Assembly (NCBI GenBank): GCA_963402885.1
Contig: OY727097.1
Location: 1 to 64,000 of the forward strand
Origin: Antedon bifida
Taxonomy: Eukaryota > Echinodermata > Crinoidea > Comatulida > Antedonidae
Length of the DNA stretch: 64,000 bases
Direction: 5' to 3'
The notes beneath the pieces were generated by a model. It searched no databases and was not told the DNA's origin. It saw only the letters and a program-made list of their open reading frames with translations. The translations under genes and the position numbers were made by a program. Below, in pieces: positions 6,043 to 49,543 of the stretch. The first letter of the stretch is position 1. Every line of letters begins with the position of its first letter.

Positions 6043-9000
6043 TCACTTTTTTTCTTTCTTTATCTTTGGTACCTTTCGGTCTGCCTCTGCAAAATAAAGA
6101 TGACAAAATAGCTATAATAAGTTTTTACCATTATTACTGATGCCAATGGGATTTAATCTTGGGTGTGTGCATGTGGGGGTGTGTGCATATTGAGGTGTGT
6201 GCATATTGAGTGGGTGTGTACACAAGACTATCTTTAGTAACAAGATAAATACCAGAACTATATACATATATGAATTTGAATACAAGTCTTCCTTCTATGA
6301 TTTAGCCTTACCTAATTCTGATTTTCTTCTTTTTAAATTAGCTGTAAGCTCAGCCATGCTGTCTGGAAGACACAGTGGTGGTGGTTGCTTGGCATAAGCA
6401 TCCGTGTTCCTACAAATAAATCCATTCAGTAAAACTAATAATTTTAAAACTGGTGGGAAGTGAGGCCTTTCATAAAATTACTAAAAACCAGACCCTTCCC
6501 CATTCCCCTAATGCAAAGCCTCATCATAACTCTCAATTTCAAAAACTCTGTTTTGTTAAATAGAGCAGTCAATCCAAACCCCTCCAGAACTCTCAATTTC
6601 AAAAACTCTGTTTTGTTAAATAGAGCAGTCAATCCAAACCCCACCAGAACTCTCAAATTCAATAAACTCTGTTTTGTTAAATAGAGCAGTCAATCCAAAC
6701 CCCACCAGAACTATCAATTTCAATAAACTCTGTCTTGTTAAATAGAGCAGTCAATCCCAACCCCTCCACAACTATCAATTTTAATAAACTTTAAATAAAA
6801 ATTTTAAAAGAACAGTGAACCTTTCAACTCATGAAATATCATTCAACTCATAGACACCTTAAAACATTTTTATAGCCGTGTTGGAAGGCGAGAAATGACT
6901 GATGGGTGGGTGAGCATGAGGAGAGGTCCAGAACCGCAATACAAATTCATTTAATACTCACTGTTGCATATTGTCAGTACTCTCATCCATATCTTCAAAT
7001 TTAAGTTGTTTATGTGATTTTGAAACTTGCTTATCACGCCGATGACCTTGAATAACATCATTTATCTGTCTTAGTTTCTCTGTACCCTATACATAAATAC
7101 AATTAATATAACATCATTTATCTGTCTTAGTTTATCTGTACCCTATACATAAATACAATTAATATAACATCATTTATCTGTCTTAGTTTATCTGTACCCT
7201 ATACATAAATACAATTATTATAACATCATTTATCTGTCTTAGTTTCTCTGTACCCTATACATAAATACAATTAATATAACATCATTTATCTGTCTTAGTT
7301 TATCTGTACCCTATACATAAATACAATTAATATAACATCATTTATCTGTCTTAGTTTATCTGTACCCTATACATAAATACAATTAATATAACATCATTTA
7401 TCTGTCTTAGTTTATCTGTACCCTATACATAAATACAATTAATATAACATCATTTATCTGTCTTAGTTTCTCTGTACCCTATACATAAATACAATTATTA
7501 TAACATCATTTATCTGTCTTAGTTTCTCTGTACCCTATACATAAATACAATTAATATAACATCATTTATCTGTCTTAGTTTATCTGTACCCTATACATAA
7601 ATACAATTAATATAACATCATTTATCTGTCTTAGTTTCTCTGTACCCTATACATAAATACAATTAATATAACATCATTTATCTGTCTTAGTTTATCTGTA
7701 CCCTATACATAAATACAATTAATATAACATCATTTATCTGTCTTAGTTTCTCTGTACCCTATACATAAATACAATTAATTTAAATTGATTCCATGATAGA
7801 TATAAAATTAATGAACTATTATTATTCCCCGACAGAAAGGTTCTTAAGGTGATTGATTTACCTCCGGTCCACTTTCACCAAAGTTATAAAGAAGCATTGA
7901 TCTTGGTGTCATTTGTAAATGGTTCACTGGTAGAGGGCTCTTAAATGGAGAATCTTTCATCGGAGAGATGTATAGGTTTGTCTTACCAGGTACACTGTGG
8001 TTTAGAAAAAGGAAATTCAATGAGAATGAACATTCAACAGACTTAGCTCAACTCAACGTAAACATTTATTTTATTTTATTTTAATTTTTATATTTATTAA
8101 CTTAATAAGGTACTTAAATAAGGTAGTTAAGTATTATTCAGTACTGTATAACTAAAATATCCAATTGTTAAACTTACACATAGACATGATGAGGACTTAG
8201 AGTTGTAGGTTTGTTTCGAGATGGTACTGGAGACAGATTTGGAGTCTGTAAAAGAACACTGAATAATTAGGACTAATGCTTTACATGTTAATTACAGAAG
8301 AAGAATTAAGAAATAGGTTAAAATTACTTTACAGGAAACAAGAAACATAAGGTTTACAATACACCGTTGAAAATGACAATTTTACCAAAGCCATCTAAAC
8401 ATTATTCTATTGAGGAAGCCAAACTTTAATATTTACTTTTCTGGATGGTCGAGGGTTTTTATCACGTTTAAATTGAAAAATATAAAGCTGTTACTTTTTA
8501 ACAATATAATTTATACATATTCACGTTTTTTGATAGTTAAGAATGTCTATGGTGTTTAATTTAAAAAAACCTATAATGCTGTACCTTTTTAACTTTAATC
8601 TTTAATCAAATGAGAACGGAATGGTTTTTTTTTAGGTGTATTCTTTTTGTTTATATTTTATGAATAGTGAAAAAGGGTTAGTTAAAAACGCCTTTTTTTG
8701 TAAAATTATTAAAATTATTCATGTAAAAAATCTTTCATACAAAATAGTCATTCTACTATCTAAAGACATTTAGAAAAAGAGAGTTTCCAGAAAGACATTT
8801 TGGTTCAGAAGGTGTTTCATGGTGGTCAATTTTAATAAACTTACACTTTGTCTAGAAGGCTGGAATTGAAGAACAAATGTTTTGAGTGATGGCATGAATA
8901 CTCGGTTGTAGAAGGATATAATAGAATCATGTTCACCATTCTCAATCAGAACATGTTTGTAAACCTACAAAATAAAGATACACAGTTGACAAAGTGATGA

Positions 9001-12000
9001 TGGAAATGGGGTAAAAACAAGTAAATAAAGATAAATGATTACCATTTGAGAGGCATGTGGCTGTATCCTATACACAGCTACAATACTCTTAAACTTCTTT
9101 TCTTGTTCAACAACTTTACATATTGCATAGACACTACACATCATTATCTATTTCACAGAAATCAATAAAATGTTAACAAAATAAAGGACAAAGTTTTGAC
9201 AAGTAGCAAAATAGTGAAATTTAAGAACGTCAATTAATAAACCAACACTTTAATCAAATCTTGTTATGAGGCTCAAACAAAGGCTTTATTTTGGCCTCGT
9301 AATGTACCAAAGCGTAAGAAAAGTAACAATGGTTTGTGAATGTACCAAAGAGCAAGGAAAGCATGTAATAATGTCCATTAAAACATACCTGGTCTAAATG
9401 TCTATCCTTGAGTAACAATGGTTTGTGAATGTACCAAAGAGCAAGGAAAGCATGTAATAATGTCTATTAAAACATACCTGGTCTAAATGTCTATCCTTGA
9501 GTAACAATGGTTTGTGAATGTACCAAAGAGCAAGGAAAGCATGTAATAATGTCCATTAAAACATACCTGGTCTAAATGTCTATCCTTGAGTAACAATGGT
9601 TTGTGAATGTATCAAAGAGCAAGGAAAGCATGCAATAATGTCCATTAAAACATACCTGGTCTAAATGTCTATCCTTGAGTAACAATGGTTTGTGAATGTA
9701 CCAAAGAGCAAGGAAAGCATGTAATAATGTCCATTAAAACATACCTGGTCTAAATGTCTATCCTTGAGTAACAATGGTTTGTGAATGTATCAAAGAGCAA
9801 GGAAAGCATGCAATAATGTCTATTAAAACATACCTGGTCTAAATGTCTATCCTTGAGTAACAATGGTTTGTGAATGTATCAAAGAGCAAGGAAAGCATGT
9901 AATAATGTCCATTAAAACATACCTGGTCTAAATGTCTATCCTTGAGTAACAATGGTTTGTGAATGTACCAAAGAGCAAGGAAAGCATGCAATAATGTCCA
10001 TTAAAACATACCTGGTCTAAATGTCTATCCTTGAGTAACAATGGTTTGTGAATGATGCAGTGATCAAAGCAAGTCCAAATCCGCTGAAGCTAAAAACAAT
10101 AATAATAACATTATTGACAGTATCTTGGTAGCATTATCAAATCAGACTTACAGCAAATTAATCAAATTACATACTAGATCAGTAGGTATTTCTAGCTTTG
10201 AACACATATCCTGTAGACGTTCATAGGCAAGATGGGAGACTTTGGTAATATATACATTAAGTGATGCCGAACGTAATCCTCTTTGGGTTGCCACTGAAGT
10301 GCTGTCTTCACTACCACTACTACTTGTACCAACCGCATCCACAGTTTTACTGTTTTGCTTCATTGGAGACTCAAACCTACAAATAAATGCATTGCTATAA
10401 ATACAATCTGTAATTCCAACAATGGAAGGAAATACTGTAGGTACATAATACTAGAATTTGATTCACCATCATCAACAAATCATGTGTTTGAAATAATTTG
10501 AATTTGATGCTGTAGTACGGAATTTGTAGTATACTTGGCCTAGACAACCATATAAATTATTAAAAATGAATCAAAAATAGTAATTTTTTTGTTGTTTCAC
10601 ATGATGGGATTTGAAACAGTGTAACGAGTTGAACCTTAGACAGGCACAAACTGTAACTATCTTGTAATAAATAGTTACAACAGAGATTAGGGATAGTTAT
10701 GGCCAACAAGTTACACAGAAGATTTACAGTATAGGATATGTCCCACATATCCTATACACAAAGTACATACGCCATTTAACTTCATAGAAAAAGAAACATG
10801 CAAGCTGTTTTTCTAGAGTCAAGTTGTATAATAGTGAATTAATAGAGAGTGTTACTACTTAAACAAAATGTAAGATTGAAAAGAAACAAGTAGCGATATA
10901 CTGTACTATTTACATTTCAGATGCCCTATTCTTCATTGTAAAAGTCATACATGGTTCTCCAGAGCTTGGAGGCTAGAAAAAGTAAATAAGGCAGGAGTCA
11001 ATATGAAAATCTTATATTAACAGCAAAGAAAAATGCTGCATTATGATATGGAATGTTTAAATATAAAAAACACATTATTTAACATAAAGAATGATGATGT
11101 CACAATAACATGATAAATGTTATATATCCTACCACATATGGCGAGGTAGTTGATGAACTAATGTAACTGTCCATTGCATCAAATAATGGAGATCCACTTC
11201 TCCATGCTAAACAGTCCAGTATCATTGCTTCTGCATTCTGAAGATGCTGTGGTGAAACAAGCTTATTGATTAAATGTGAAACACAGACCAACGTGTAGTA
11301 TCTTCTCATACTATTGCACCATCTTATTACTGTATGTAACATGTTCGACTAGAACTATTTCTAATTTCAATAGCACAATTATTGTCAGTTATTATGTACT
11401 CAATGTTGGATAAACATAATAATAAATATACTAACTTTAACTGCATCTCTTGTTAGTTTTGTCTCCTCCTTCAAAAATGTCTCAATTACTTTACAAAAAT
11501 CATAAGGTTGAATTTCAAATATACCAAGAATCCATGGGAAACTAGCACTACTTTCATAGTTACTAAGATTACTCAACGATGGAGACACTAACAGAAAGAG
11601 AACAAATAACAACACAACTAATAAAATTAAACAATATTAGTTTTAAATAGTAGTAATCATGATTTACTTTAAAAATTGTTTTTTTATTTTATGCACAAAC
11701 TTTCAGAATAAAACAAAATGTAAATTATCCTTCATTTTACAAAAAAATGTAATAGTTCTTAAAACTTTCATTTACTTAAATTAAAAAGTCACATTAGAAA
11801 AAAAATACATACATAATGTTCCATATGTGAGAAGCACAACTTCCAACGAGCAAGCAAGCAAAGATTTATGAAATGTATCATTGCACAACAACTTTGAGAA
11901 ATTTGTCTGCTTTAAACGATCTTCTTCCTAATACACAAAAAAAGGGGAAATATACCAGAAGCAAACTTTAACAAGTGAAATGCATACAACAATCATTTGT

Positions 12001-15000
12001 CATATACAATAGTGGTAATTACATCTTAATAACTAAATAATTACGCAAATGGATACAGTAGTCTTCACAATACCAGGGTGGCAAAATCAGTCAAAAATAT
12101 TGGTCTTCTGTGTGGCCCTGGGTACAATTAGTATAAAACTACAACAAGACCACTTAAAACGCCTTAAAACAAACTGTATATGGCACCTTGTAGGCATCAT
12201 TAGGTTTACATAATATGAAACTTACACTGGTAAGCATTGCTTCCATAACCCTAAAGTAGAGTTTACAGCCAATTTGAAAGCGTTGTTTGGCAACTTCACA
12301 CATGTGGATACCCATAGTAGATGCAAAGCCCTGAATAAAATCCCTTTCAAGGTTTGATAGACGTTGCTTTACCACTGACGTTGGATCTTTATGACATTGC
12401 TGTAAATAACAAATGAGTACTAATCAAGTATTACTTTAAAAAATGTGTTTTTTTATTTGATGATCTGTGTCTATTCTTTTTTCCATGCTTTATGAATAGA
12501 CAAACAGAATAGAAAGACAACGCTGAATATCAGTAATTCACTCCACTATCCTATGCTATTAAGAACTCTCAGTCTTTTGCCGCAGGATTCTATAGAAAAC
12601 AGTGAATCTACTGGCAATAATAATATAGTAAATAAATATCAACAATCGAACTGACTCAGGAGTCTGATTGTTCTATTTACATGTATGTTTTGAAAAAGAA
12701 AATATTAATACCTGTGATGGATAATGCAGTAATACTTACTTTAAAATATTGAAGAAGTGTAGGTGATGGAGTGGAACTGCAAGAGTTTAGAAGATTCTTC
12801 AATCCTTGGATAGTATTGATAGCTCTCCTATGGAAAAAGGAAGGAAAACATCTAGGTTTAATTTGCTTCTGCTAAACGGCATTATTGTTTCATGAATTAC
12901 AGCATGGGACCAAGTCACTTTAAACATCTAATGTTATTTTAACATGTAATACACCAAATAAATACAAACTTTAGAAAAAATATATGATATTGTTGGACCT
13001 CAATTAAGAAACATGTAAGTAATAAGAATATACAACATTGTCAAAACAACAGAAAAGGCCAAAATAAATATATAGAAAGAGATAAATCATTTTATTTCGA
13101 TAATCTATTACAATCTAAATTTTCACCTGAGGTGTCTTGACTGCACAAAATGACATTACCCCTACATCAATTCAAAGACAATATAATTTATATAACTTAC
13201 TTTACTGGAGTTTCTACTTCCCTCGAGTACCTTGCCGAGTCTGGTTGACTTGACGCTGAAAGTCGTGGTTTTTCAGGAAATAAATAACTTTTCCGTGAAA
13301 GAAAATGTATCTCATCTATGTCTTTCTTTGATTTGTATATCTCTTGGTACTGTTGTTTCAGAAAAGCGATCTATTGGTGTTAAAAATAACAAAAACTGTT
13401 TCATTGATTCAAATAAGAATTAAAAACATAATTTGGTCATCATCTGCATAAAAAGTAATTACCTCTGTAAGTTCAGTATAACCTTCTTTCTTTTTCTCTA
13501 AGTCATCAATAAATGGTAAAAGATGTTGATTCATCATGTTAGCTACGTCATCATAATCTTGTAGTTTGACATGCTCACAAAGAACTCGTAATACACTTGT
13601 TGGACGCTCTGAAGATTGTTGTAAGTTAGATGGCCGAGTACCTTCAAAAGAAATGTACAGTAAAATTTACCAGCAAAGTGACCAGCAAACCAAACAATCT
13701 GGTTCTATAAAAACAGACATTTACTTACTGAAACGCTCTCTTAGCAAGAAAACAGGTACTTGTTTAATTATGTGGTCAATACAACCAATCATCAGCTGAA
13801 ACGATGTCAACAGGTCATTGCAGTTTTCAAACAATGATCCTAAAAACATGAAAAGTGAGTGAGTAAATGTTGTTGTTTTTCATTGAAAGAGTAGGTCCAT
13901 GACAATGAATATTTCACTTAACCTATAACATTATCTGCATAGACCACTTAAACACAGATTTATAAAACATTGGGATTTATGACACTGGTCACAATGAACT
14001 TAGATTTTAACAATAACAGAAATACCTTTTGCGATTACAAACATTGACCAACATAGTTCAGTATGTTTTAAAAGTTGCGAAGACAAAAGTTCACGGTTTG
14101 CATAATTGTTATCCATTGTATCTTGGCTTTGAAATACTTCTTGAAAAATACTATAATAGATAATTTAGAAGATTAGTAGTAGAGTATAATAATGGTGTTT
14201 GAATTAGGTGAATAAGATGACTTTACCTATTTGCTTATGGTAATATATATCAAATAAACCAGTAGTTAAACTATCAAACTGTAGTGTTATAATCATTACT
14301 TACCGTTCCATCTTCTGGAATAGTGCAATAGAAATGCAGTATTTCTGTTCAGCTTTCAAGAGATGCTCTACCACAATACGACTTATCATATGCTCAGCTT
14401 TTAACTTGTTCATCTTGATGAAAAACATTACTATGCTGAAAGTATACATAATTTCACCTTGTAAATTTACAGTGTTACATGTAGCAATAGTCTGTTGACA
14501 TACACTGAAGGACTCCCTAGGATTCGCGTTAGGGTTATTCGCTTTCAATTTACAGTGTTACATGTAGCAATAGTCTGTTGACATACACTGAAGGACTCCC
14601 TAGGATTCGCGTTAGGGTTATTCGCTTTCAATTTACAGTGTTACATGTAGCAATAGTCTGTTGACATACACTGAAGGACTCCCTAGGATTCGCGTTAGGG
14701 TTATTCGCTTTCAATTTACAGTGTTACATGTAGCAATAGTCTGTTGACATACACTGAAGGACTCCCTAGGATTCGCGTTAGGGTTATTCGCTTTCAATTT
14801 ACAGTGTTACATGTAGCAATAATCTGTTGACATACACTGAAGGACTCCCTAGGATTCGCGTTAGGGTTATTCGCTTTCAATTTACAGTGTTACATGTAGC
14901 AATAATCTGTTGACATACACTGAAGGACTCCCTAGGATTCGCGTTAGGGTTATTCGCTTTCAATTTACAGTGTTACATGTAGCAATAATCTGTTGACATA

Positions 15001-16279
15001 CACTGAAGGACATTCCAACAAAGTTAATGCAAATCTTATTACTCTCTTAATTAATAAAAATGTAGAATTTAAAATGCAACAATATCATAATGATTCAATT
15101 CTGAATTAGAATATTTACTTCATATTTGATGCTTGCAATATTTGTGTAATTGACAGTGAAGGTCCTTGGATTCCTTGCTCCTCTGTATTCATTGCTTTCC
15201 TGAAAATAATAATACAGTAATATTATACAGTTTATTCATCCAAACCAAAGTGTAGTCCAAGCTGATCATAATAGAAACAACAATGGTAATTAAAGCCATT
15301 TTACGATATTACATTTCCAAAACCAATATGCTGACCACCATAAAACATAGTTTGGAATAAATAAAACAATATTGCACTACTGCAATACCAAGAGTAAAGA
15401 AACTATTATGTCATGATACATATTGCACTACTGCAATACCAAGAGAAAAGAAACTATTATGTCATGATACATATTGCACTACTGCAATACCAAGAGAAAA
15501 GAAACTATTATGTCATGATTCATATTGCACTACTGCAATACCAAGAGAAAATAAACTATTATGTCATGATACATTTTAGGATTGTAAAGTAAGACATTCT
15601 GCATATCTTTTCGTAATTATTGACCCCATATACATTCAGCTGGCCCGTCCTAGATATTATCTATTGAATATAATATGTAAATGTTGTTGATAATAATAAA
15701 TTGTATTATGAAAAGAAAGCATAATCATTACATTATAAGAAAGAAATAAATCAAACTAACCAATCTTCAATGATAGTGACATAAACTGCACAAGAAATCC
15801 AAGAAGTTGGATCAACCTACAAACAAAAAAGGTAGATTATATAAATTAAAAGTAATCACAAAATCTCCATTACAGCTAACTAACAGATGGAATGATCGTA
15901 CTCTCTCATAGCTACAATTCACCAAAGCAATTCACCAAAGCATTTATAATTTCCTGTTGCTCCAAAAGGTGTAGGATAATATGGCACAACCTACAGGAAT
16001 GATAATCATAATTTAGAAACTGTTGTTATTTGTTTTATTTTCTCATTGATTTGTTGTATAATTAGGTGTATTTTTAAGTATTTTTAACTAGGCCTAAATG
16101 AACAAATAAATTAAATACACAATTAACTATTATTAATGCATGTCAACAAGTTGACTTACTTTAAATTCCACACAAGAACTATCCATCCAATCTCTCCAAA
16201 TAAGCTGAGCATTGCGAGTTAATGATACTGACAATTCTAGTTGATTACATATCCTAATAAACTCGTCTTCTGACTGCAT
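6043..16279 (-). CDS. RB1: Retinoblastoma-associated protein (RB1 orthologue)
   Basis: Nuclear pocket protein that represses E2F-driven genes and is inactivated by cyclin/CDK phosphorylation. Twenty-three coding exons join in frame to 875 aa (human 928): 16279-16160, 15816-15761, 15199-15119, 14435-14304, 14150-14026, 13839-13729, 13641-13463, 13349-13201, 12827-12740, 12399-12226, 11927-11813, 11587-11436, 11246-11133, 10972-10914, 10376-10175, 10089-10012, 9147-9043, 8964-8845, 8245-8178, 7994-7862, 7086-6962, 6409-6312, 6086-6043. Domains: RbN about 1-268; pocket A about 318-532 ([26 protein letters not shown]); pocket B about 580-720. The LxCxE-groove residues are kept: C649, Y652, Y699, N700, equivalent to human C706, Y709, Y756, N757. 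The short pocket B, without the p107/p130 insertion, points to RB1. The C-terminus has YISPMK and MTPRS CDK sites (human T826 kept) and ends in basic clusters. The start is the first ATG after the exon's upstream AG sites; a 5' UTR intron is likely. Two minisatellites overlap coding exons. Confidence 0.95.
6528..6770. repeat. 60-bp minisatellite, about 4 copies
   Basis: Four copies of a unit containing CTCAATTTCAAAAACTCTG and AATAGAGCAGTCAATCCAAA, spaced about 60 bp apart, in an intron of RB1 between the exons ending at 6962 and starting at 6409. Reading frames opened on both strands are repeat artefacts. Confidence 0.93.
7054..7781 (-). repeat. 56-bp minisatellite carrying RB1 exon 21 acceptor, 13 copies
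   Basis: Thirteen copies start every 56 bp from 7054 to 7726. On the minus strand each holds the pyrimidine-poor intron end, the acceptor TATAG and the first 33 coding bases of RB1 exon 21 (starting GGTACAGA). The lowest-coordinate copy is the true exon start (acceptor at 7087-7088); the other twelve lie upstream in the intron. Copies differ mainly by C or A at one exonic position (GAG or GAT). Confidence 0.96.
9331..10054 (-). repeat. 89-bp minisatellite carrying RB1 exon 16 donor, 8 extra copies
   Basis: Units start at 9331, 9420, 9509, 9598, 9687, 9776, 9865 and 9954, each 89 bp. On the minus strand each has the last 43 bases of RB1 exon 16 (ending AGACATTTAGACCAG), the donor GTATGT and 40 bp of intron. 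Only the copy joined to 10055-10089 has the rest of the exon and an acceptor. The extra copies sit downstream in the intron and carry intact-looking 5' splice sites. Confidence 0.96.
14472..15013. repeat. 83-bp minisatellite with internal TTAGGG, 6.5 copies
   Basis: Near-identical 83-bp units start at 14472, 14555, 14638, 14721, 14804, 14887 and 14970, the last one partial. Each full unit contains GCGTTAGGGTTATTCGC. The array fills the RB1 intron between exons 3 and 4 and stops about 36 bp before the exon 4 acceptor at 14436. Confidence 0.95.
15370..15573. repeat. 51-bp minisatellite, 4 copies
   Basis: Four copies of a unit starting TATTGCACTACTGCAATACC at 15370, 15421, 15472 and 15523, in an RB1 intron. 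Each unit contains the near-palindrome TATTGCACTACTGCAATA. Confidence 0.95.
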
Positions 16280-18978: not shown

Positions 18979-21900
18979 CTATGCACGTGATTCAACTCGT
19001 ATTGCATTGCGTTTTTGAAGTGATTTTCTGGAACCACTACGGCTACGATTACGTCTTAGGTGTACTGTTTGACGATGACTTCTTCTTGAAGACTCTGGAT
19101 GTAAACAAATATCAAAACATATTTATCAATCAAAAGGTTTACCAAGGAATATTTTCACAAAAGTGCAAAATCTAATACAGTACTATGTAATAAAATTAAA
19201 CATAGTGAGTAAATAATTCCTTCTGAAAAGTATTGGTGATTTGGAAGTTGCCATAATAAATAATACATATTAATCAGAATACTGTACATACTGTACATAA
19301 TAATTAATCAGAATACTGTACATAATAATTAATCAGAATACTGTACATACTGTATATAATAATTAGTCATATACTGTACATAATAATTAATCAGAATACT
19401 GTACATAATAATTAATCAGAATACTGTACATAATAATTAGTCAGAATACTGTACTGTATATAATAATTAGCCATAATACTGTACATACTGTATATAATTA
19501 AGAAAGTCAATAAAGTTAGTGAATTAAAATGATACAATTAGCAAAAAAGTGATGGTGGTATAAAACAAAATGCTCACCTTAAATATAATCATATATATAA
19601 AACTTTTTCTGCTGTTAACATGAAAACAAAAGAAAAATCAAATGAAATGAAATTGTTAAAAACTAAATCAATGCATTATGTATAAAAAATAAATTATTAA
19701 ATTGAACACAATAACATGCAATTAAATCAGAGTTATGAGAAAGCAATGCATGCATGTGGAGGTTCAAGGGGTTGTGTGTATTTAGCATTTTTTAAATTCA
19801 AATTCTTTATTGTAATAAAGTAAACATTGTTGAATTTACAATATTAAATAGCAATTAATAAATAACTAAAAATACAAGTTCATTACAACATATAAAAATG
19901 ACATTAAAATTTTAAAAGCATTTGATAAAATGATATTTAAAAATTATAAAACAAGTTCTGTGAAACATGAGTTAGGGTTAGGGTTAGGTGCTGTGAAACA
20001 TGAGTTTATAGGTCTACTGTATATAATAACATTTTTTGTTTTATCTTATTAATTATTAAAATCTCGGCTCAGTATACCCCAATCGGGAGCCAGGGTTCCT
20101 CAGACCACCCCAAAAGGGAAACGAAAAACTGTCATGACAGACAGGAGTGGTGGAGGGGGGGGGGGGGAGACACCCTGCATTCATGTGATAATCCGTAGTT
20201 GATAATAAAATTTCCAGATCTGTTAGTTCAGACACATTTTAATGATATTCTTGTTATGATACCAAATAATTAATGTGATTAAGATTAGTTGTGTAATTGA
20301 TCAATGGGTGTGGGTTGAAACCTGAACCAAACACACTAAATATATAATAAGTTGCTGATAGCTTTTAAAAAATGGATGCAAATAAAATAAGATTAGAATG
20401 TTAGCATGCCACCATGCATGCAGTTAATACATGCCTACACACCTTGAGGTACATATGAAACACTAGTACGAGTTGCACGCATTGCAAGGGATTCCAAGTA
20501 ACCAGCAGGAACCCAGCCTTTTTCACTAGTCAATGTTTTGCGTACAAGCCACCAGCCTGATTTTCCAACACGTTCTACTTCTACAATGTCGCCCTCTTTT
20601 ACAGGAAGTTCGGTCTCCTCAACAGTCTCATATTCAGCAAGAACAACGTATTGATTCATTGCAATAACCTGGATCATAGTTTAGCATGAATGTTAAGGGC
20701 TAATTATATATATGTTCATTGGTGGAAGCATGTAAGTCTCATTAGCAAAAGCAAGCATAGATGTTCTTTATAGTCATTTATAAATTGAAATAAAATATAT
20801 ACTAAATAGATTTAATTAAGCAACAATGAATATTACAGTATATTAGTGCTATATGCAATGAAAGATATATGAGGAATTGTCATCAAGCTAAGTACACTGT
20901 ATGGTATTGTTAGTTATTTATAAATCATTGAATTATATTAACCCTAGCTTGAAAAATAATCCCACTCAAATTAAAAGAAACGACAAATATATAAAATGGT
21001 AAATATTATATTTACTTGAGTGTTAACGGAACATGTGTCATCCATCCCGTCATCAGAATCGCTAAATTCTTCACTAGCCCAACCGTCCTCATCATTATCT
21101 GCTGAGGACATGTTGACAAAGTTCCCACTAGCAGATGATGTTTCACTTGGAGTTGGTGATGGGAGAACTGTTGTGTCATGTCCATTATTATTAATTCTAT
21201 GAAAAATAACAGGAACAGTTTTTTGTGTGACAACTTTCAACAAATATATATATTTAGGTATTACATTCCTTTGAAGTATTGTAATATTGTATAGCTTTAC
21301 CTATTGTTATCAAATATTTCATGAGTCTTTTGTTCGATGAGGTCCTTCATAGCTGAAATAAAAAATATATTTTGAAACAAATACAAGGATACAAGGATAC
21401 AAGGAAACTTTATTCATCCCAACTTGTCTTATAACAATGCCGTAAAGAATAGAGAAATGATAGGCCTAATACATAAGTGTGATAATAATAATAACAATAA
21501 TAGTGTATCGTAATAAATTCCCCTATCTTTGATATCGTTCATTATAGTCTTGTATGCCCCTTGGGAGGAAGAAGAGACGATGGCGTTCAGTGGATCCTCG
21601 TGGCGGCCTCAGTCTACCACTACGTTCCATAAGGCAGTCGGCAATGTCCGAGATAAGGACAAATTGTGAAACAAACATATATAAACAATAGGTTTATTAA
21701 TAAATCTCAAAATGTTTACTTACCTAGCTCTTCCTCTAGCTGGCTGTGAAGTAGCTCCCTGATTTCTTTTACCCATGTTACTTTAGTCTCATCATTCACA
21801 GCCTATAGACATATAATTTCAAAATATTAAAGTATTACATTTACTATACATTTTGTTTTGGAACACATAATAAGCTTAACTTACCTGAATAATGTGAATC

Positions 21901-24900
21901 TCTGATTTATCTTGCAGCCACAATTCAAATTTTCTCCTGTCTCCTTTTACATGTTCTGTAATTCCAAGGTCTTGTACCTGATTATTAAATTAATGAATTT
22001 ATTAATTTTTATAAAAGTTTCATTAACATTGTTAACTTATAGTTAACCATTGTTCAATGCTAGAATGCAATAACAAATTAATACGAACCCTTAACTTGTT
22101 CTTGTATGTGTAGCAGATTTTATCTTTCAAATCATCCCTTTTCTTGCAGAATAAAATACACTTCTCATAAAGAAACATATGCCTTTGCATTTTCTTAAAT
22201 CTAATGTCTTTAATATTTCCTTTTTTGTGTTCAACCCATACATAGAAAGAACCTTGCATGAGTAGTTTTCCAAGATCTGAGAGTCTGCCATCAAAGCCTG
22301 TGATGGCTATCTGATGCATTGAATCATTCACAAATTTCAAAACATGTAACATACAGTCTAGGGCTTTCTGAAGGTCAGACACACCCGTCTCAGCTGCTGA
22401 ATATTTTAACATCTCCTACAAAACATTTAATCAAACAATTTATTCACAAGAAAAGTTTTTGAGTGCGCTTATTCCCAGTACTGTATGACATACAGAAAAA
22501 TGCTGGATGACATTACAAAAATGTTTTTTGCCATTTAAATTAATCAATCAATAATCTCATTAAATAGAATACAATTTCGGACATGATACAAAGAGAATTC
22601 AGGAAATTTATATGATGAAGGAGGTGTTTAAGTTAAGTTTAGCATTGTCACGCAAACAAATACACAAGTGGATTTACCTTAAGCAATAGCTGATATTTTG
22701 TTATCCTTTGAACTGGTTTCAACAAGTATGCACTTAAAGGTAACCTATGACCCAACTGCTTTTGACACTCCTGCAAAACCAAATATCATCAAACACGGAA
22801 TAATTGCTTTGAAATTAAAATTTAAATAATTCAGAAGCTTTGTAATGCTAACACACATTTTCTATGTAGAAATATTAACAGGTGTCACTGTATGAGTAAA
22901 CATTGCTGTAATTAAATTTTAGACACGACATAAAGCAATTTTGAAAATGTCGTAGTAACAAGCATATTTAAAATCAAACACAGTCATCCCTGTGTTGTGA
23001 ATACTTACAACAAAGAATGGGTTGTCATTTCCACACTCCCTTCTTAGCACCTCAGCCTGTGGTTTATTTTGGCAATAAATACTATACAATTTATTAATTT
23101 CATGCTCCTGAAAAATGTTAATAACAATGTTTTAACAACAAATCAAGCACACCATCAAATTAAATGTTGTCCCAATAAAATTTTACTTTCTTTTAAATTT
23201 AACTCAAACATCTACTGTAGCCATCTACAACAAATATTTAAAATTGTCTGTGCTAAAAAAGTATATAGCATGTAGAGATAGAAGGCCCTATAATAAATTA
23301 TATTTTTATATTATTTTTAAATGATAATTGTTAATATTGCATTATAATAATGATAATGAATGATTAGTTATAATCTTTTTATAAATATTTGATAAATTTC
23401 TTGTAAACATAATGCTGTATATCTATGCCACTTCTCAGAATTGTGTGTGATCGTTTTGTTTGTAGTACAACTTATATGTATTATAGTGATTAGAGGGCCC
23501 CAGTGGAAAGCAGTGATAACACTGATCTGGGTTACCCTCTTTAAGGAAGACTAATAAAAAAAAAAAAATGAAAAATGTAATTATTAAAATAATTTGTTAA
23601 ATTTAATGCACGCTTTTGGTAAAAATAGAGTATTTGTTTGTAAAACTTTGTTATTACTATTATTGTAGAGTTTTTAATACCAAAATTTTAAATTATTGAT
23701 ATGATAATACCGTATTAATGTTTTATTATTTCAAACTGGCTATGTGATTCATACAAGTATAAAATTGATTGTGACTCAGGAACTTGGGTCCCTAAAGCTT
23801 CGTGTGAAGTTCCCATGGACTAATAGTCATAAGATAAACAGGGTTTTGAAGGTTATAATTGACTTCTAACTGAATTGGATTTATTAAATGAAAATGGCAA
23901 CATAAAACCTAATGGTTATGTTCAGTATGTTATATATTTAATTCATCTATTACATTCCATTCCTTTTGTCTATTTATACTATTTATAGCTCCTTTAAGTT
24001 CTATTAAAAGTTGTTTCTAATCATTTAAAATATTATTTTCAAATTAACTAACCCTGATAAAGGAAAGTAAAGCTTTACATGATTCTGTATCGGAAATATT
24101 AATCTAAAAATGGGAACAGCATTGCAACACAGTATGTAATGAAGTGTGGTTTAGGCCTGATAAAGGGAAGTAAAGCTTTACAAATAACGCATAGAAACAA
24201 TTAAAATCTAACAATCACAAATACATTTTTATTAGCTAATTTTATTTAGTTATTAATGTGAGAAGGTGCCTATTAAGTGACAATTCTTAACAATAATCAT
24301 CATTTTAGAATAATGAACAGTTAAAAAACCACATACTCTTTCAACAAAACACCGGCCAACCAATGCTGGAGTACTTTTGCAGTTTTCCAGGTCAACAAGG
24401 AATGTACTGAAAAGAATTGAATATTTATATTAAAAGCAAAGTGTTTATGTAAATGACGTCGATAATGGCTGATGATGATAATCACAATAAGATAGTGATG
24501 ATAATGGTATGATGATAATGATGATATGATAATCACAATAAGATAGTGATGATAATGGTATGATGATGATGATAATGATATGATAATCACAATAAGATAG
24601 TAATGATAATGGTATGATGATGATGGCTGATGATGATATGATAATCACAATAAGATAGTGATGATAATGGTATGATGATGATGATAATGATATGATAATC
24701 ACAATAAGATAGTAATGATAATGGTATGATGATGATGATAATGATATGATGATCACAATAAGATAGTGATGATAATGGTATGATGATAATGATGATAATG
24801 ATATGATGATCACAATAAGATAGTAATGATAATGGTATGATGATGATAATGGTATGATGGCCACAATAAGATAGTGATAATGGTATGATGATGGCCACAA

Positions 24901-27900
24901 TAAGATAGTAATGATAATGGTATGATGATGATGATGATGATAATGATATGATGATTACAATAAGATAGTAATGATAATGGCTGATGATGATGATAATGAT
25001 ATGATGATCACAATAAGATAGTAATGATAATGGTATGATGATGATGATAATGATATGATGATCACAAGAAGATAGTGATGATAATGGTATGATGATGATA
25101 ATGATATGATAATAATTTGATGATGATAATGGTATGATGTTGGTTATTAATGATTTTTAAACAAGAATTAAAGTTTACTTTTTATGGAATTGATATAATT
25201 GTTCCCAGTTTGCAAACAGCACTTGTGTTTTTTCAACAAGAGCTGGTGGAATAAGATGAGTAAGTGTAGGATTGTGCATCTGGTCTATATATCCAGTAAT
25301 GACTGCTTCCAGTTCAGTAACATACAGTCTCTCAGTTTCTATCAATTCATTCATAACATGCCTGAAAACAATAAAACATTTATTTATGGACTTTAAATTA
25401 AATCTGGAATTAAATGGAACTGAGAACAAAGAAAATTGAAAATAAATTAGAATAAATAAACTGTGATGTTCTTTTACTAATATAATTTTCACAAACTATT
25501 ACCAATGTTAAATAGAATGCATGTTTTAATTAATGATTCATTATTCTCTTATGATAATTCAAGATATGGATAACTGTACTCCACTCATATGTCCATTGTT
25601 ACCGCAATCATATCAATCAATTTAAAAAATGTAACCTTTGACACAACCACCATTAATCATAAACAAGACTCAACCTCCTGTTGATCATCTTTTTATTTTC
25701 TCCTTCTAGAAAATGCATTTAGCCTACTATTTAAATAATTCAAAGATTTATTTGCCATTTATATCATGTTATCAATGAAATATTTGACAGATAATAGAGT
25801 AACCTTAGAGTCCAGTTGCCAATTTACAGTAATATCATCTTAAAATCAACCATTCATAGTGGTATTGATAGTAATATAGAGGGGTACACCTACATGACAG
25901 ACAGGGAGCTGATGGGGTATAACACAATACACTGAGTGAATTCTAAAAAGTCAATAAACTATTGAAAATGATTAAAGTGAATGGATTATTAGTAAAATAA
26001 AAAAAAATCTAACTCGGCCAAGGCTCACAACCGGTAAGAGACAGATTAAATGCAACCGCATTCAAAAATATCAACCAACTTTACTGTATGTTTCTTTCAA
26101 AGAAATTATGACAAATGTTCACAAAGATATCTCATGATAAACAACTTCCTAAAAAAGATATCACTATAATCTTTCTGATTATAGGCTCAATTGTCCCGAG
26201 GAGGAATACCTATTTTCTATGGAGTACTACTGTTTTATTTAATAATCTGTCACTAGGTAAAAGTTTAAACGTCATTTTGCAGCAGTTACTTATTCAATCT
26301 CTCTGAACTGTGTTTTATTGTGCATCGTGACCATGTTATTATGACACAAACTTTACCTTAGAGCATAACAAGATAACATGGCAGAATTGTATTAAACTAA
26401 AAGAAGGATTGAATAGAATGTCTCACCCTCTTTTTGAATTTAGTGAATCTCCTTCTTGACCACACAAATCAGCTGTTGATTCTTCAGAGTCTCTTAGTAC
26501 CTCTATGTCCTGGCAAAATAATAATAATAATTATAAAAAACTTTATGAGAAGATGACCAGTGAACATCATTCAGTCCATGCAACTGTTGTTTAGTGTGTG
26601 CATTAATGTATTCTCGATATTACAAATATACTGTATATTTAAATCGGATATCAATATTTTACTCTCAAATATATACAAGTAGATGAGTTAATAGAGCCTT
26701 CTGGTAGCATTACACACCCAGTATTGATCCTCTTGTCTATCCATCTTCTTACAGAGAATATAAACAAAGGCTAATGATCAGTCTGGTACCATTATACAAT
26801 TACTATCACAAGAACCGTACAAGCAGTAGTATCAGCAACGATACCACCTTCAACTAACACTAGTATCAATAATAATGATGATGTGCATGAGTGAATTTTA
26901 GACTCGTTAATTATTCTGTAGGGTTTATTTTCAAACAGTGTGTCTTTGTCAATTATGGTACTTTGTACTAATAATAATATTTCTGCAATAAAGCAATACT
27001 GTAATTGTAAAATAATACATACATAATAGAACAGAATGATGCATTGTCATGGTGATGAGGAGGGAAAGGCTTTGAACAAAGCTTTGTATAAAGAAATATT
27101 CCTGATGGTTTAAAAACTAATTAAAATGAAAATACATTAACATGAATAATTCCTCTTGCTGATATTGATTACAAGTACATCTTGAATATTGCTGTTCATG
27201 CAAAATAGACTACTGGCAAAAAGATGTTGAATTATAGATTCTAAAAGTTCAACGTTAATTTAATGCTTCATTTGCAGAAATCTCTTGTTTAAAATCTAAT
27301 CCTGTGCTATTATCTTATCATTTAGATTTTTTTTTAACATTATATACTGACGACTGATAATTGAAAGATAATGTTATAATTTTTTTCGAAACAATTAATA
27401 CCTATATTAGATGGCCATATAATATGACAGAACCAGCATGTGCAATAAACAAATTAAATGTAGAATTATAAAATGTTAAAACCTTGTAAATAGTTAGAAG
27501 GGAATATTCTGAAATAAAATAATGTGTAAACCTTTTTAGCTGCTCTTGGAGTCCTTGGTAAGACTTTCTTTTTCTCTCTCAAAGGCGAGACAGGTTCAGA
27601 CCTCCTCTGGCTCAAAGGTGATAACTTATTTGTGATTTGGTTTGGTTTTCTCATTTGCAGAGTAGTCTGTGGTGCAACCATTACCACTGGTTGTTGCCGC
27701 TCCAGCTTGGCAGCAATCTTCTTTAAACTTTCACGCCGTTTCTCAAACATATTCTTTACATCTTCCATTTTTGTTACGACTTCTGTCACAAGTGCCTGGG
27801 TAAGTGAAAATAAGTATTAAGAAGTATTTGGAGTAACAAATTTGGGTTTTGTTGTTTTTGTTGTCATTATTGTATATTTTATACATTAAAAAATAATGAT

Positions 27901-30900
27901 TAAAAAATATTGTATATAAAATGTGTTAGTGAAGGGTGCATATTACTCTTGTTGACACTCTCTTGCACACCTACAGTTTCAGCATGACCACAACATTCAC
28001 AACTATTCACAGAGGAATTTGTATTTAATTTTAAAATAGGTGAATATCTCACTAAAAGTGTGATTGGTAAATACTGGGGCTTAGAAACAAATCCTGACAT
28101 AAAGCTACCATTTGGATACCTTAAATGGATTAGTTGGCCATTTTTAAAGATAGATTAGTAGTCAACAAAAGCGGTTTAATTATTACATTCAGAAGAATGT
28201 TATATTAGAGTGCTTTGAAAAAAATAATCATATATAATACACATTTACACAACTTTAGGCCTATACAATTGGACCATAGTAAACACAACAATATTATTTT
28301 TTAAATCTACATTTAATTTATATATAACATTATTTAATGAGAGCTAATGCTGTACTATGAATGTATTAAGACTAAGTAGGATTAGATTGGATTAGATCAT
28401 GCCTATTGATTAGACTACCTGATTGCCCGTTTTTTGGTATATGGCCGCCTGACAATGACGTGTTGAGCATCGTCTAGAGGGGGGCCGTCCGGCCCAGCTT
28501 GTACCATGCATGATAGAATCCAAAAGTTCTTTTGATGCTTTCTAACATTTAACTTACTCTTTTATTTATTGACTCATTTCCCCTTTAAATCTGCCCGTCT
28601 CTGTATTCCGATATAACCGCTGTTAAGACTCAGCCATTATGATAAATAGGGGTTTTTGATTGTTTTCACTACCCTAGATCAATCAATGAGTCATGCAATA
28701 TTTCAACACAACAGGTGATGGTCTTAAAAGCCAATTGTAATGGATTATCATCGTCATGGTTACAGGGGAACTATGAACGTATGATCATAGAACTTGTGTA
28801 TAATAATTTTCATAATTTATATAATCATAATTTAATTAATAAAATAATATTGAATACAAAGTAAAATGTGTTTTTTTTTGTATGCTGTACATTGTCAGTA
28901 CCGTATGTTATTACAATTATTATTTTAGAGTTTACAGTAGTTTAGACCCTATCAAAAAAACATCTATCCAAAAAAGAAACGTTGCTACTATAACAAAATA
29001 ATATATAATAACACCAAAATAATCATCAATAAAATAACATGATATCTGAAATTTTAAATCCCGAAATAATGTTTTTTAATTTATTATTTGTTTTTTACCT
29101 ACTGTTCACCAAAGTATGAATACCACTATATCTGAATCTTTTACTAACACTTTAATGTAGATGGTTCAAGATTTTGTGAGTATTAAGGTTTGCTAACAAT
29201 ACAGAGACTATGAATCTTTTACTAACACTTTAATGTAGTATTAAGGTTTGCTAACAATTCAATTACCTGTTTCTGCATTACCCAGAAGCAGCAGCTCTGC
29301 TTGTCAATTTTAAAATAATAAAAAATATTTCATATTTATTTGTTCATATCATAAAAGAACGAAAGAAATAAAAAAAAGCTAAATCAATTTCATGCAAGCG
29401 ATAATTTAGTCTAAAAAATATTGAAATCCTAGTATTTGAACTCTAACCACCATCGGGAACCAAACCAACACATTCAGCTTCACTCCCTAGCATCGTTTAA
29501 CTCTAACCCAAGCCAACACATTCAGCTTCACTCCCTAGCATCGTTTAACTCTAACCCAAGCCAACACATTCAGCTTCACTCCCTAGCATCGTTTAACTCT
29601 AACCCAAGCCAACACATTCAGCTTCACTTCCTAGCATCGTTTAACTCTAACCCAAGCCAACACATTCAGCTTCACTCCTTAGCATCGTTTAACTCTAACC
29701 CAAGCCAACACATTCAGCTTCACTCCTTAGCATATTGGGGGCGAGAGGGCAATAATATCATAAGACTCAGCAGACCTGATATTCTATTATCTAGAATAGT
29801 TTAAATATAAAATATTAATTTCTAAAAGACATGCAAAAAAATCGGTCAATGGAAAAATAGAACAATAAAACTAGATTGTACTTAAAAAAAACAAAATGGA
29901 TATTTTCTATTGCAATATCATGTACTATTTTCTAAAAAGTAATAAGTAAACGAAAGTAGAACAAACATAAACTGGGAGCAATTTTTTTAATTATTAAAAT
30001 AAACTGTTAAAATGTTAATGTTCATTGAATGTTGCGATGCATACTACTGTATACAAATTCACTTTTCACTCTTCTGCAATTCACAAAATCACAATAATAT
30101 TATTGAAAAAAAAACAAAAAAGGATTAATATTACATGCATTAATATTACATGCATTAATATTACATGCATTATAATTAATAAAATATTGTAATTCAGCAG
30201 TGAAAGTGCACAATTAATTCTATAATATCTATAAACAATCTACAGAGGGTGCTGTTTAGTTTTACAATGATGACAAATTGTTGTTTTAGTCTTTTATATT
30301 GAGTTTTCCAGGGTAATCATTGATGTACAATTTTGTCAACAAAATAAAACTCAAAAGCAGGTCCTGCTTTCTTCCATGATACCATTCAAATAATTTAAAT
30401 AAACCAAATTTAAAATAATGTGTTTTCGTGCAAAATAAATAAAACAAACCTCTGCATGTTCTCGCTGTGACTGCTTACTCTAAAATTAAAAACCAGAGTG
30501 AATATGAAGTGAAAGACGTTTTGTGTCTAGGACATATCCAGTACATGCAATTGATTATAACTATGTACACTGATTACAAGCTTACTAAGCAAAAACTAAA
30601 GAAATTATTATGATTGGTTTAATTAACATTTCCTTGGCCCAATGCATACTATGAGTATGAGGAGGTGGAACCATGAGCTACAACATGCACTAGAGAATAA
30701 TAATGAAAATGATTAAGCCAAACATATATATGATGATGATGTTTACTGATGATCATCATGATTGAAGATTACAATGGTGATAACAATAACATGATCATAA
30801 TAATTTCCAAATTGAAAGATATGGATTATATGATTCAATCATTTCCATAAAAAAGTTAATAGTATAAAGTTACCGATAATTCTGAGTTAAGGATGTCCGA

Positions 30901-33900
30901 GAACATTGTGTGGAATTCTTTAGGATTGCTGAGTTTGAGTTCCTTACAGTTTTCAAGGTATGCATCAATGTTTTTTAACCCCTGGTCAACCCCTTCCTTT
31001 GTCTGACATGTGTCAATGTCTTGTGATGCTAGTACTTCCATTCCTTTTGAACACCATTGTTGGGCCTATAATTGAGTACACATTAAATTACTGAATACAT
31101 GAAAGAGGAAAACATTGAATTCAACAAATGTGTGCACATTATGTGTTTGTTAAACAAAAGATAGAAAATTATATACTTTAGGGTAGGTTCAACTACTGAC
31201 TGATAGAGTACCTTATGTATCCTTTGATGTAATTCTAATGATTTGCTTAACACAATTGTTCTTGTAAGTGTTTTCCTTTCAATGTCTTCAATTAATTCTG
31301 AAATGTCTTCACACTTTGGTCGGATACAATCCCCAGCATAGTTTTCCTGAGTTATCAGCTCTATACCCTCACTACGAAGTTTTTCTGCAGATTCAAATGC
31401 AGGCTGAAAAACAAAAACAAAAATTATAAAAAATCACTCAAAAACTGAATGAAGTGCTGTACTTAGCAAAATATATCAATCATAAAACATTATTCAGAGA
31501 GAGAGGGCTCACTACTTCATATTTTGTAAGGATAAATGGAGGGGGGAATAACCTGCAACTTGCAGCTACTGGGCTGAATTGCGCACAGGTGTCAAAGACA
31601 CACACCACAACTTTCTTCTCCTTTAAGGGTCCCCTAGTGTCGACTGCTGCCTTCAAATGGCGTGTTATTTAATATTTCGTATGAAAGATACAGGTTAGTA
31701 AAAAAAATAAAAATTTTCCTTTTTTTTTATTTGTGAAGTTATTAATGAACCGATTTTAGTATATTTACACTGAAAAATTCAGAATGATAACTTCAAAATT
31801 GTAGGCGTTATCGTGCTAACATACAAACAAAGCACGTACTTATAACAATAATACTAAATGACAATTTGTTTCTGGTTTAAGGAGGACAAAATGCGTACTT
31901 CATTTTAATTACAAATTAATCAAATATAGAGGTGGCTAACTTGAAATGTTTTAATAAACTTTAAAATTAATTGAATCAGAAAGTCAACTTACATGTGTAT
32001 TTCCTTCAAATTCATTGTGTAATGTTGATAATCTCTCAACTGAAGCAACTGAGTCTCCAAGCTCATTAGCATCATTGATTTTGTATAGGTAATTATCAAG
32101 AACTAATTTCACCTATAAACATCAAACATTGTCATATGAAATATGGTAAGTTTATTATAAATTGTTTTTAGTTGTATATTCAACCTCGTATTATAATTCC
32201 ATTATACAGTTATTTCACAAACCTGTTTAAACTGATAATCAAACCTTCTGTAGTCAACACACTGCATCAGCTTAATCTTGTGTCCTTCCCAAAACACATC
32301 AAATGACTTCTCTGTTTCCTCTAATTGCACTAATAATCTTTAAGAAAAAATCAATAACTTCTTGAACAAATATTAATAATAATAAATAAATAAACCTGAA
32401 TGCATAAATAATAAGCATAAATTAACTAACTACTGAAACTAAAAATTAACTAAATAATTGAGTTGAAACAAGTATAATACCAAATGGAAATGGCATTTTC
32501 ATATAATGTTGCATGCACTACATAGTATTAACACAGTATACATATATAATATACACATTTTTAAAACACATTTGAAGCTTTCATATTTATTCATATCTTA
32601 TCATAAAACAATACCATAGAACAACCAAGAAGAATTTATTATTAATTTAAAATCACAAACAAAATACCACTGTAAACAAAAATTAAAAGCCCTATTTTTG
32701 CATAAAGTATGTTGTCCACCGTTTGTATCTCAAAACCATTATCTGCATTTACCAGAATATAAAATCAAGAAATACCGGACTTTGCAAGTTAACATCAGGT
32801 GGTTTGAGTTAACATCAGGTGATTTGAGTTAACATCAGGTGATGTGAGTTAACATCAGGTGATTTGAGTTAACATTCAGGTGATTTGATAATAATGCCAA
32901 TAAATCAGTTTATAGAAGCTGATGACAAAATTCAGTTGGTAATTGTAAATTTGTAAAATATTGTAATGATTAGGCTCCTAACATTAGCATTATGAGTACT
33001 TTTAAAACTGTACTGCCCTCACATTCTTAGTCTACAAAATAACTTTTAACTTGGATAAAATGTAAAACATAATAAAAATGAATTTCTGCAACTAAATGAA
33101 TGAAACTGTATAAAATAATAGCATGCAAAGATTAACACTAAACAAATTGTTACATTCACTAATACTTACTTATTCTGAATATCTCCAGCACTTTCATTTA
33201 AAAATTAAAATAAATAATGTAACATTAACATAGAAGTATCAATCAATAGAGTATTATTATAAAAAAAACCTAGTAGAATTAAAAACCAAAAAAATAGCCT
33301 CCTTAATAAAGCAGGCAACAAATCTTATAGTCATTATGGGTTTATAGAACTAACAACTTACATAAATAAAAATGTAATAATACCTTTCAACAGCACAGAC
33401 ATTGGAGAGTTTATCTGGGTTGAGTTTAAAGGAAGCTGTGTCTTTGGAAGGCTTGCGTATACAACCAAGTAACGTTTCACCATGGCGTCTTGTACTTAGG
33501 ATATCTTCTTTCATCTCATTATGTTTTACCGTGTGGTCGTGTAACATCAACTTAGCTGCATCAAGATCATTTGGAAGCTCATGTTGGTTCATTTCATCAG
33601 ATATTGCTTGCACAATTGTTGAAGTCTCGCTGCAATTTGCTGCAAATCTCTCAATAGCCTTTCATGAATAAAACAAACCAGGTGAATGGTATATACAATC
33701 TAAATAAATTGCTTAGCACCTCTATACATTAATTATTTATTTATTTTATTTTTATTTTTTTATATTTCTGGATAACGAATACACTACTCTATCTTGATAA
33801 AACTCTTAATTTAAAACATTAAATACCTGGTTATGCAACTTATTATATTTTACTACTAAATTAGTTCTATTTCAATTAATGCACTGTACTTAAATATACA

Positions 33901-47612: not shown

Positions 47613-47706
47613 ATGACTGAACAGCTGATAATAGTCTATTTATACGTGTATTACGTAATTCATCATTTCATCATAAATATCACATTAAGCTTGTTAAAAC
47701 CAAAAT

Positions 47707-47779
47707 GATCAGTTAGCTCAGTCGCCTGAGCGTCGTGTTGACAACACGTATGTCGTGGGTTCGATTCCCACGCTGGTCG
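47707..47779 (+). repeat. tRNA-like SINE head, plus strand, copy 1
   Basis: It folds as a tRNA: acceptor GATCAGT with GCTGGTC, D arm TAGCTCAGTCGCCTGAGC, anticodon loop TTGACAA (anticodon GAC, Val-like), T arm GTGGGTTCGATTCCCAC. A conserved 190-bp body follows through GAGGCAGGGAG, and a T-rich stretch comes after it. Repetition and the attached body indicate a SINE. A reading frame on the other strand (PAWESNPRHTCCQ type) is a tRNA artefact. Confidence 0.8.
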
Positions 47780-49367
47780 GTGGAATAGAGTTAAAGGCAT
47801 GCGGCCACTGTGTTTGGGGTTCACAGAATTATACGTCCCCCTTTCCACCACACATCATGAGGCGACAACATCAATGCATCTGGTGATGTGCTGGAAACGA
47901 CCCCAAAAGGCTGTGGCAGGGCCTTAGTGCTGAGGCAGGGAGAGCACATTTAACATCTTTTTTTTTATTTAATTTTTTTTTTCAACCTGTATTCGATCTC
48001 GTAAATTTTATGTTTGCCGCCCTCAATTTTAAAAGAAATTGAATTTCATATTTTTCATCGCAGGTGTACGAAACGGTTTTTTGGTATGCCGTGCGTTGTT
48101 ATGCAATGGTTGTGCAGGTGTAGTGGGAAATATGGTATTGTTATTCATTCGCGGTCAACACGCCACACTGTTAAATTTTGATTTTGTTAATCAATGTTGC
48201 TACATTGGTAGCGAAATGTCCGATTCATGAAAGATATTGTATTGTAAAATGTTATGAATAAACTTGTATGGTAGTTGGTGTGTATGGCCGCACCGTCTTC
48301 GGAATAAACATGTTTTAAACAGATAGTTTGTCTCCGATGGTTTTTGTATAGGGTTAATGGAGAGTGAAATAAGATCAAATATAGAACATTTGCAAAGATG
48401 CCGATTTCTAGACAAATTTCGAAGCTTAGACTAATTCCGCCGCCGAGCTAGGCCTTATACGAAGTCGAGTTTTAAAGTATAAAACCCCACCTAAAATGTT
48501 GAAGTCGCATCTGGATAATTGAAATGTTAACATTATCATTGGTGATTATGTATAGTTATAAGTATAAGTGCAATTCTTTGCTCCTCATTATTAGCTCTGC
48601 CCCAACCATGATGGACTAATACTGGAGACTTAATATTTAATTTCATATTTAAATGAATTATAGGTACACTTTACGGGGACAAGCTCTATTGTCCTGGTAA
48701 GTCTTATATAGTTTGTTTCATATAATTTAAAATCATGTAAAGTGCCATTTTTTCGGGCGGGAACCTATGCAGCTCTATTTTTCAAAATTGTTTTGCTCAG
48801 CCCCAAGCATGGTGGGGTACTGAAGATTCTTATACATGTTGTTTGAAAAAATAATAGATGTCATTTCCGGAGACCTTGCAGCTCTATTTTAAACAGTTTG
48901 GTATACCGTGCGTTGTTTATGCAAATGAGTTTGTGCAGGTGTATTATGGGGAAGATGGTATTTTAGTCATTCGCGGTCAACACGCCACACTGTTAAATGT
49001 TGTTGTTGTTAATTCTTTACATTAGAAGATTGCTCAAATCATGTAAATAAAACATTTGCCGGCCGGGAACCTATCAGCTCCCTTCTTTTAGTTTGCAAAA
49101 GTACTCTCGAAAAGAACTCCATGTGGAAAAGAAGGCCACCAAAGAGTACTAAAAATGAAGGAGCACATGGGCTTCTTTTAGAGGTTTTATGACAGTCTAT
49201 TTAATGAAAATTAACGCCATGCAACTTTGTTTCTGATTATAAAAAAGGTCCACTTGTTTAGGCCTGACATTTACAACCCTCAGAATATCTCTTTTTCAAA
49301 ATAACAGGAAAAAAATAATTAATTTATTATTTTTTTTATTTATTTTTTTTTTATTAAAAAAAAAAAT

Positions 49368-49450: not shown

Positions 49451-49543
49451 TGACTGAACAGCTGATAATAGTCTATTTATACGTGTATTACGTAATTCAT
49501 CATTTCATCATAAATATCACATTAAGCTTGTTAAAACCAAAAT

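Follow-up and report, generated by a model that had tools for sequence, protein, structure and literature searches.

How can a gene be read correctly when the end of one of its exons, splice donor included, is repeated in tandem through the intron that follows? And does such an array point to a mechanism aimed at exon–intron boundaries, or did a minisatellite simply happen to grow across one? The RB1 gene at the start of crinoid contig C10 raises both questions; one array crosses the donor of its exon 16 and another the acceptor of its exon 21. The reading we prefer, with a probability of roughly 0.7, is that these arrays are mirages of the type described in amphioxus: minisatellites that would have grown neutrally over a boundary, with the exon-proximal splice site in use and splicing errors that carry early stops.

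RB1 Gene and Exon Structure

The window (the whole stretch of DNA that was analysed, 64,000 nucleotides) is the start of contig C10 in an assembly of 315.6 Mb and 27 contigs. RB1 lies at positions 6043–16279, start codon to stop codon, on the reverse strand, as do the exons, splice sites and boundary arrays of the gene described below. Placing the exons against RB1 gave a 23-exon model with consensus splice sites, whose joined frame is open throughout (883 codons with the stop). Pfam, run on a draft translation read by hand, matched RB_A (E 6.6e-61), RB_B (3e-37), Rb_C (1.1e-8) and DUF3452, and human RB1 chains scored above RBL1 chains among the PDB matches of the gene product. The Pfam and PDB matches and the exon model agree with the initial annotation, which had named the gene RB1 and the boundary the exon 16 donor.

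Exon 16 (10012–10089, 78 nt) belongs to pocket B. Its protein segment ends in ...DRHLDQ and aligns with DRHLDQIMMCS of human RB1. The true donor of intron 16, GTATGT at 10006–10011, is the sole donor that leaves the RB1 frame open, and exon 17 (9043–9147) supplies the acceptor common to all eight donors. Exon 21 (6962–7086, 125 nt) begins at the last of 13 acceptors. The introns are short, with a median length of 298 nt. With the true donor, intron 16 has a length of 864 nt, against 241 nt if the last extra donor were used; for intron 20 the length is 775 nt with the true acceptor and would be 103 nt with the first extra one.

Anatomy of the Boundary Arrays

TRF and unit alignment both locate a minisatellite of 89-bp units at 9322–10054, where it straddles the donor of exon 16. 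TRF reported a period of 89, 8.2 copies, 97% matches and a score of 1410. Each unit is composed of 43 exon 16 nucleotides and 46 intronic ones, the donor included, with CAG|GTATGT at the boundary; in gene orientation the exonic 43 nt read CATTCACAAACC...GACCAG, followed by GTATGT. There are eight full units (10054–9343) and a partial ninth, a 21-nt exon fragment at 9342–9322 without a donor. The unit composition agrees with the one first proposed, 43 exonic bases, the donor and intron; the repeat was also said to add eight intact donors to the true one. The donors are indeed intact, but the exon model gives seven extra ones (9383–9922), identical to the true donor, and eight in total. The first intron base is 10011 for the true donor and 9922, 9833, 9744, 9655, 9566, 9477 and 9388 for the others.

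Nine nucleotides past the partial unit, and outside the array, a shared 12-mer, CTTTGGTACATT (9301–9312), remains from the end of a unit and hints that the edge once held a unit that is older or has been deleted. The eight full copies agree at every one of the 43 exonic bases and throughout the donor, and the three variable columns are all intronic. Among these eight copies there was no significant signal of purifying selection on the exonic part (P 0.13).

A second boundary array of opposite polarity in the same gene, unrelated to the first, had also been proposed, and it is present. TRF, the exon model and unit alignment locate a 56-bp repeat at the exon 21 acceptor boundary (7052–7783). Its unit combines 20 nt of intron with 36 nt of exon, and the array presents 13 acceptors, the true one and 12 extra. 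When a junction was counted as duplicated if at least 16 of 20 bases were matched within 300 bp, 2 of the 44 RB1 junctions qualified, namely the two that the 89-bp and 56-bp arrays cross. The other three large arrays in the gene (61, 83 and 51 bp) touch no junction. The 51-bp array, four copies in intron 2 (15369–15574), has an acceptor-like TTTCTTTTCTCTTGGTATTGCAG in each copy that is part of no modelled RB1 exon.

A third boundary array was found in a myosin-like gene on contig C15. It lies in a locus chosen by a myosin family hit and not by its repeat content (L025, C15:21520501-21529000, about 157 kb from the contig end). According to the exon model and the family hit, a 98-bp repeat of 6.2 copies (L025:7439-8045, reverse strand) crosses the acceptor of a myosin-head exon (L025:7410-7504). 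Five of its six acceptors are extra, and all five lead to stops in the exon frame.

Two further observations concern myosin genes. On contig C9, reverse strand, myosin head profile positions 107–152 are matched twice, 174 bp apart (L023:3429-3734), perhaps a duplicated, alternative exon. On contig C7, at least eight myosin head matches at profile positions 342–407 lie between about 11.6 and 17.8 Mb, which suggests a group of muscle myosin genes.

Consequences of the Extra Splice Sites

All seven extra donors lead to a stop at codon 680, 654–1188 nt ahead of the last junction, and all 12 extra acceptors to a stop at codon 818, 207–823 nt ahead of it. The initial annotation had expected donors three units away to preserve the frame of pocket B. 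Since 89 leaves a remainder of 2 when divided by 3, three added units do keep the nucleotide count in frame, but only the count: transcripts with three or six added units still stop at codon 680, because the first intron-derived piece meets a TAG in frame. A stop more than about 50–55 nt upstream of the last junction makes a transcript a target of nonsense-mediated decay. By this usual rule all of the RB1 decoy transcripts would be targets, because their early stops lie far upstream of the last junction.

For the frame to stay intact, exon 16 must end at the donor closest to its own acceptor, and exon 21 must start at the acceptor closest to its own donor. That the intact 23-exon RB1 results only with these exon-proximal sites counts in favor of the mirage reading. 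Given the intron lengths of 864 or 241 nt (intron 16) and 775 or 103 nt (intron 20), the sites expected under exon definition are the working ones, whereas those expected under intron definition are the decoys. With introns as short as those of RB1, intron definition could favor the decoy sites. Published human minigenes serve the RB1 case only as a model. Where a minigene had two identical donors and flanking introns of 365 nt, splicing chose the upstream, exon-proximal one exclusively, in all constructs tested (PMC9225289). For human acceptors the same source describes an upstream preference, reduced but not reversed in a strict exon-definition class (PMC9225289), which argues against simple carry-over to the exon-proximal acceptor of the 56-bp array.

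Could the decoys serve to regulate RB1? They might divert part of the pre-mRNA to decay, with copy number setting the dose, and it fits this idea that the 7 extra donors and 12 extra acceptors all give early-stop transcripts. The extra donors are also identical to a good donor; none of the 445 other GT dinucleotides in RB1 introns scores as high, on a matrix trained on sites that include the exon 16 donor itself. However, reported mirages leave splicing undisturbed, and the decoys lie on the side away from the exon partner. We regard it as quite unlikely. It is also doubtful, if slightly less so, that boundary minisatellites are common in this crinoid genome and that copy number acts as an RB1 dial, with more decoys giving less RB1.

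Recursive splicing can be set aside almost entirely. Each CAG|GTATGT would serve first as an acceptor and then as a donor, and the intron would be removed in 89-nt steps; an AG does stand directly ahead of the GT in 8/8 copies. None of these is a usable acceptor, however. Each scores 0.1 as an acceptor against 3.3 for the lowest real RB1 acceptor, and no pyrimidine tract adjoins it.

Comparison with Amphioxus Mirages

Tandem repeats over exon–intron boundaries are known from amphioxus under the name of mirages, and the original mirage paper, on Adh3, reportedly dates from 2002. This much of the arrays described here can be compared with them directly: the unit spans the boundary (43 + 46 nt in the 89-bp unit, 36 + 20 nt in the 56-bp unit), either kind of boundary is affected (a donor array at exon 16, acceptor arrays at exon 21 and in the myosin-like gene), and the AG or GT is kept in 8/8 full units, 13/13 and, for myosin, 6/6. 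The edge has diverged as well. The ninth 89-bp unit is partial while the inner units differ at 3 columns, and in the myosin array the sequence beyond the first unit resembles, as judged by eye, a degenerate unit end.

The amphioxus cases, as far as the portions of the two sources drawn on here describe them, include Adh3, globin, troponin C and PGBD5 genes, the globins being BflGb6 and BflGb9 of lancelets (PMC3087553, PMC3902484). In the same accounts mirages occur at the 5′ or the 3′ boundary, their copies retain AG/GT and regular splicing is undisturbed, and copy number varies among alleles and even among somatic cells (PMC3087553, PMC3902484). The edge units of the globin mirages are described as lying outside homogenisation (PMC3087553). 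In every feature that could be tested, the RB1 arrays would fit mirages, so far as sequence alone can tell.

There are also differences. The host is a crinoid echinoderm and not a lancelet, the units measure 56, 89 and 98 bp with up to 13 copies, and one gene, RB1, carries donor and acceptor arrays together. RT-PCR and allele data belong to the amphioxus mirages, whereas the arrays here are known from assembled DNA. Searches of the open-licence literature turned up no account that uses the name mirage for an animal other than a lancelet, which is not proof of absence. Read as mirages, the RB1 arrays belong to an animal group for which no earlier report was found, and they would extend mirages from amphioxus to a second deuterostome phylum, the echinoderms. 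Eight donors and 13 acceptors of near-identical strength in one transcript provide a natural test of exon versus intron pairing; the sites in each array differ in position only, which makes them a natural experiment on exon versus intron definition.

Near-identical copies are prone to miscounting, and one amphioxus mirage was misassembled in a genome draft, so an assembly artefact that collapsed or inflated the repeat number has to be weighed. Against it, the variant units are scattered through each of the two RB1 arrays, arrays of this type occur independently three times, and the assembly is chromosome-scale, with telomere repeats reached in the window. We consider an artefact very improbable.

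Two other known systems resemble the RB1 arrays in part. In human segmental-duplication genes, internal tandem repeats at boundaries are described as expanding and as able to alter splicing (PMC2812944). In that account the human repeats differ between paralogs and some create new introns (PMC2812944), whereas the RB1 arrays create none. Intron gain by tandem duplication of an AGGT exon segment is among the proposals derived from amphioxus mirages in the source cited (PMC3087553), and the same route appears as a proposal for a potato gene (PMC4974935). As in that route, the RB1 tandem copies put several splice signals close together; unlike in that route, the intron that holds them was already there, and a single acceptor serves them all. 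The RB1 arrays bear on proposals that boundary repeats seed new introns. Intron gain at RB1 itself was rejected as a candidate: the repeats are located within introns 16 and 20, and the frame is complete without an extra intron.

The mirage reading implies a simple history. A short tandem duplication would have taken up the last 43 nt of exon 16, the donor and 46 nt of intron. The sequence just beyond the 12-base remnant suggests that the first unit was flanked by a 4-base repeat, CATT, with one exonic and one intronic copy, which would fit a tandem duplication begun at a microhomology. Growth to eight units would have followed by slippage or unequal exchange, as in other minisatellites near the chromosome end, leaving the outer copies as intronic decoys. 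Splicing would then pick the donor nearest the exon 16 acceptor, giving the 78-nt exon, and the last acceptor ahead of the exon 21 donor, giving the 125-nt exon, both as exon definition predicts. Transcripts from extra sites would meet an early stop and probably pass to nonsense-mediated decay.

Chance Placement and a Proposed Boundary-Directed Mechanism

Two boundary-spanning arrays in one gene had been taken to indicate a recurrent mechanism. We collapsed each of the five RB1 arrays to one unit and placed them at random positions in the collapsed gene of 8,095 bp, which has 44 junctions. With 1 base required on each side of a junction, 1.80 crossings were expected; with 5, 10 and 20 bases, 1.59, 1.32 and 0.79. 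The probability of at least two crossings was 0.59, 0.51, 0.40 and 0.17, respectively, and when placements wholly inside exons were excluded the chance figure was higher (0.61 with 5 bases, 0.22 with 20). The observed 2/5 against 1.6–1.8 expected does not bear out a recurrent mechanism. Two crossing arrays are unsurprising because the gene is so dense in introns.

A wider test covered the window from position 4001, 200 kb of contig C1 and 56.5 kb of myosin loci, with 315 modelled junctions. The C1 sample is one internal stretch and includes 2,500 N. Arrays were retained with a period of 20–200, at least 2.4 copies, a score of at least 150 and a length of at most 1500 bp; within the window, only those beyond its first 4 kb were counted. 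RB1 served as training set for the exon predictor, later joined by eight RhoGEF exons. Of the 19 arrays that passed these filters, three span a junction of the exon models, where chance would give 1.17 (P = 0.11); the models are incomplete, and the myosin loci were picked by family hits, that is, for their exons. Arrays crossing junctions are thus not significantly above chance, the outcome that the initial annotation had named as refuting its claim, in a small sample that is not decisive genome-wide. The excess is mild and not significant, and minisatellites may have a modest boundary bias.

A mechanism aimed at exon–intron boundaries, for example at DNA structures linked to transcription or splicing, that makes such arrays repeatedly is in our judgment unlikely. 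Three cases in little DNA (two in RB1 and one in the myosin-like gene on C15), the several amphioxus genes with boundary arrays and an overall count above expectation speak for it. However, the crossing count in RB1 equals chance, the overall excess is not significant, incomplete exon models depress the expected count, and the four arrays that passed the filters in 200 kb of C1 all miss the modelled junctions. Random placement, both in RB1 and in all DNA examined, gives no significant excess, and we prefer mirages grown by ordinary minisatellite expansion.

Filtered arrays were denser in the window, with 12 in 60 kb against 4 in the 200 kb of C1 (P 1.6e-5). This sets a single chromosome end against a single internal stretch, and the length filter left out larger C1 satellite arrays. 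Among 100 predicted exons, 2/200 boundaries are duplicated, the exon 21 acceptor and the myosin acceptor; RB1 exon 16 is not among these exons, and its donor lies outside that count. For 16 exons anchored on myosin hits the figure is 1/32, in a set where 3 of the 19 hits lack an exon model and one of the models made (L025 7158-7308) is in the wrong frame. These 19 are the myosin matches that fall in analysed DNA, among 84 listed; 137 listed kinesin matches were left out.

Surroundings of the Gene and the Mitochondrial Contig

The telomere repeat AACCCT occupies positions 2–1683 of the window. It is followed, up to 3737, by degenerate 11-bp tandem repeats, GGAACATACCC and TGTTCCGAGTA, which retain long open frames in several frames. 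Adjoining RB1, at 20971–33661 on the reverse strand, is a DBS/MCF2-like Rho exchange factor gene with spectrin repeat, RhoGEF and PH domains according to Pfam; the best PDB match of its RhoGEF exon is DBS. Four tRNA-Val (GAC) genes follow on the forward strand (47706–52862) at a spacing of 1.4–1.8 kb, apparently within a larger repeated unit. An exon at 55462–55776, forward strand, encodes an ATP-dependent DNA ligase domain, and its best PDB matches are two DNA ligase entries.

The mitochondrial contig, C27, is 15,844 bp long. Taken together, its genetic code, the order of its genes and its base composition fit a comatulid crinoid, and the code and composition speak against amphioxus as the host. 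Its code is table 9: the nad1 motifs, conserved as ASNSKYSL and AETNR.PFD, need AAA to be read as Asn, and cox1 needs ATA as Ile and TGA as Trp. The order on the cox strand is cox1-cox2-atp6-cox3-nad3-nad4-nad4L-nad5-cob, with nad6, nad1 and nad2 on the other strand; no atp8 was recognised. The composition of the cox strand is A 26.38, C 11.44, G 15.44 and T 46.75%; the mitochondrial genome of the feather star Comaster schlegelii has 15,887 bp with A 26.73, C 11.38, G 15.89 and T 46.00% (PMC8820819).
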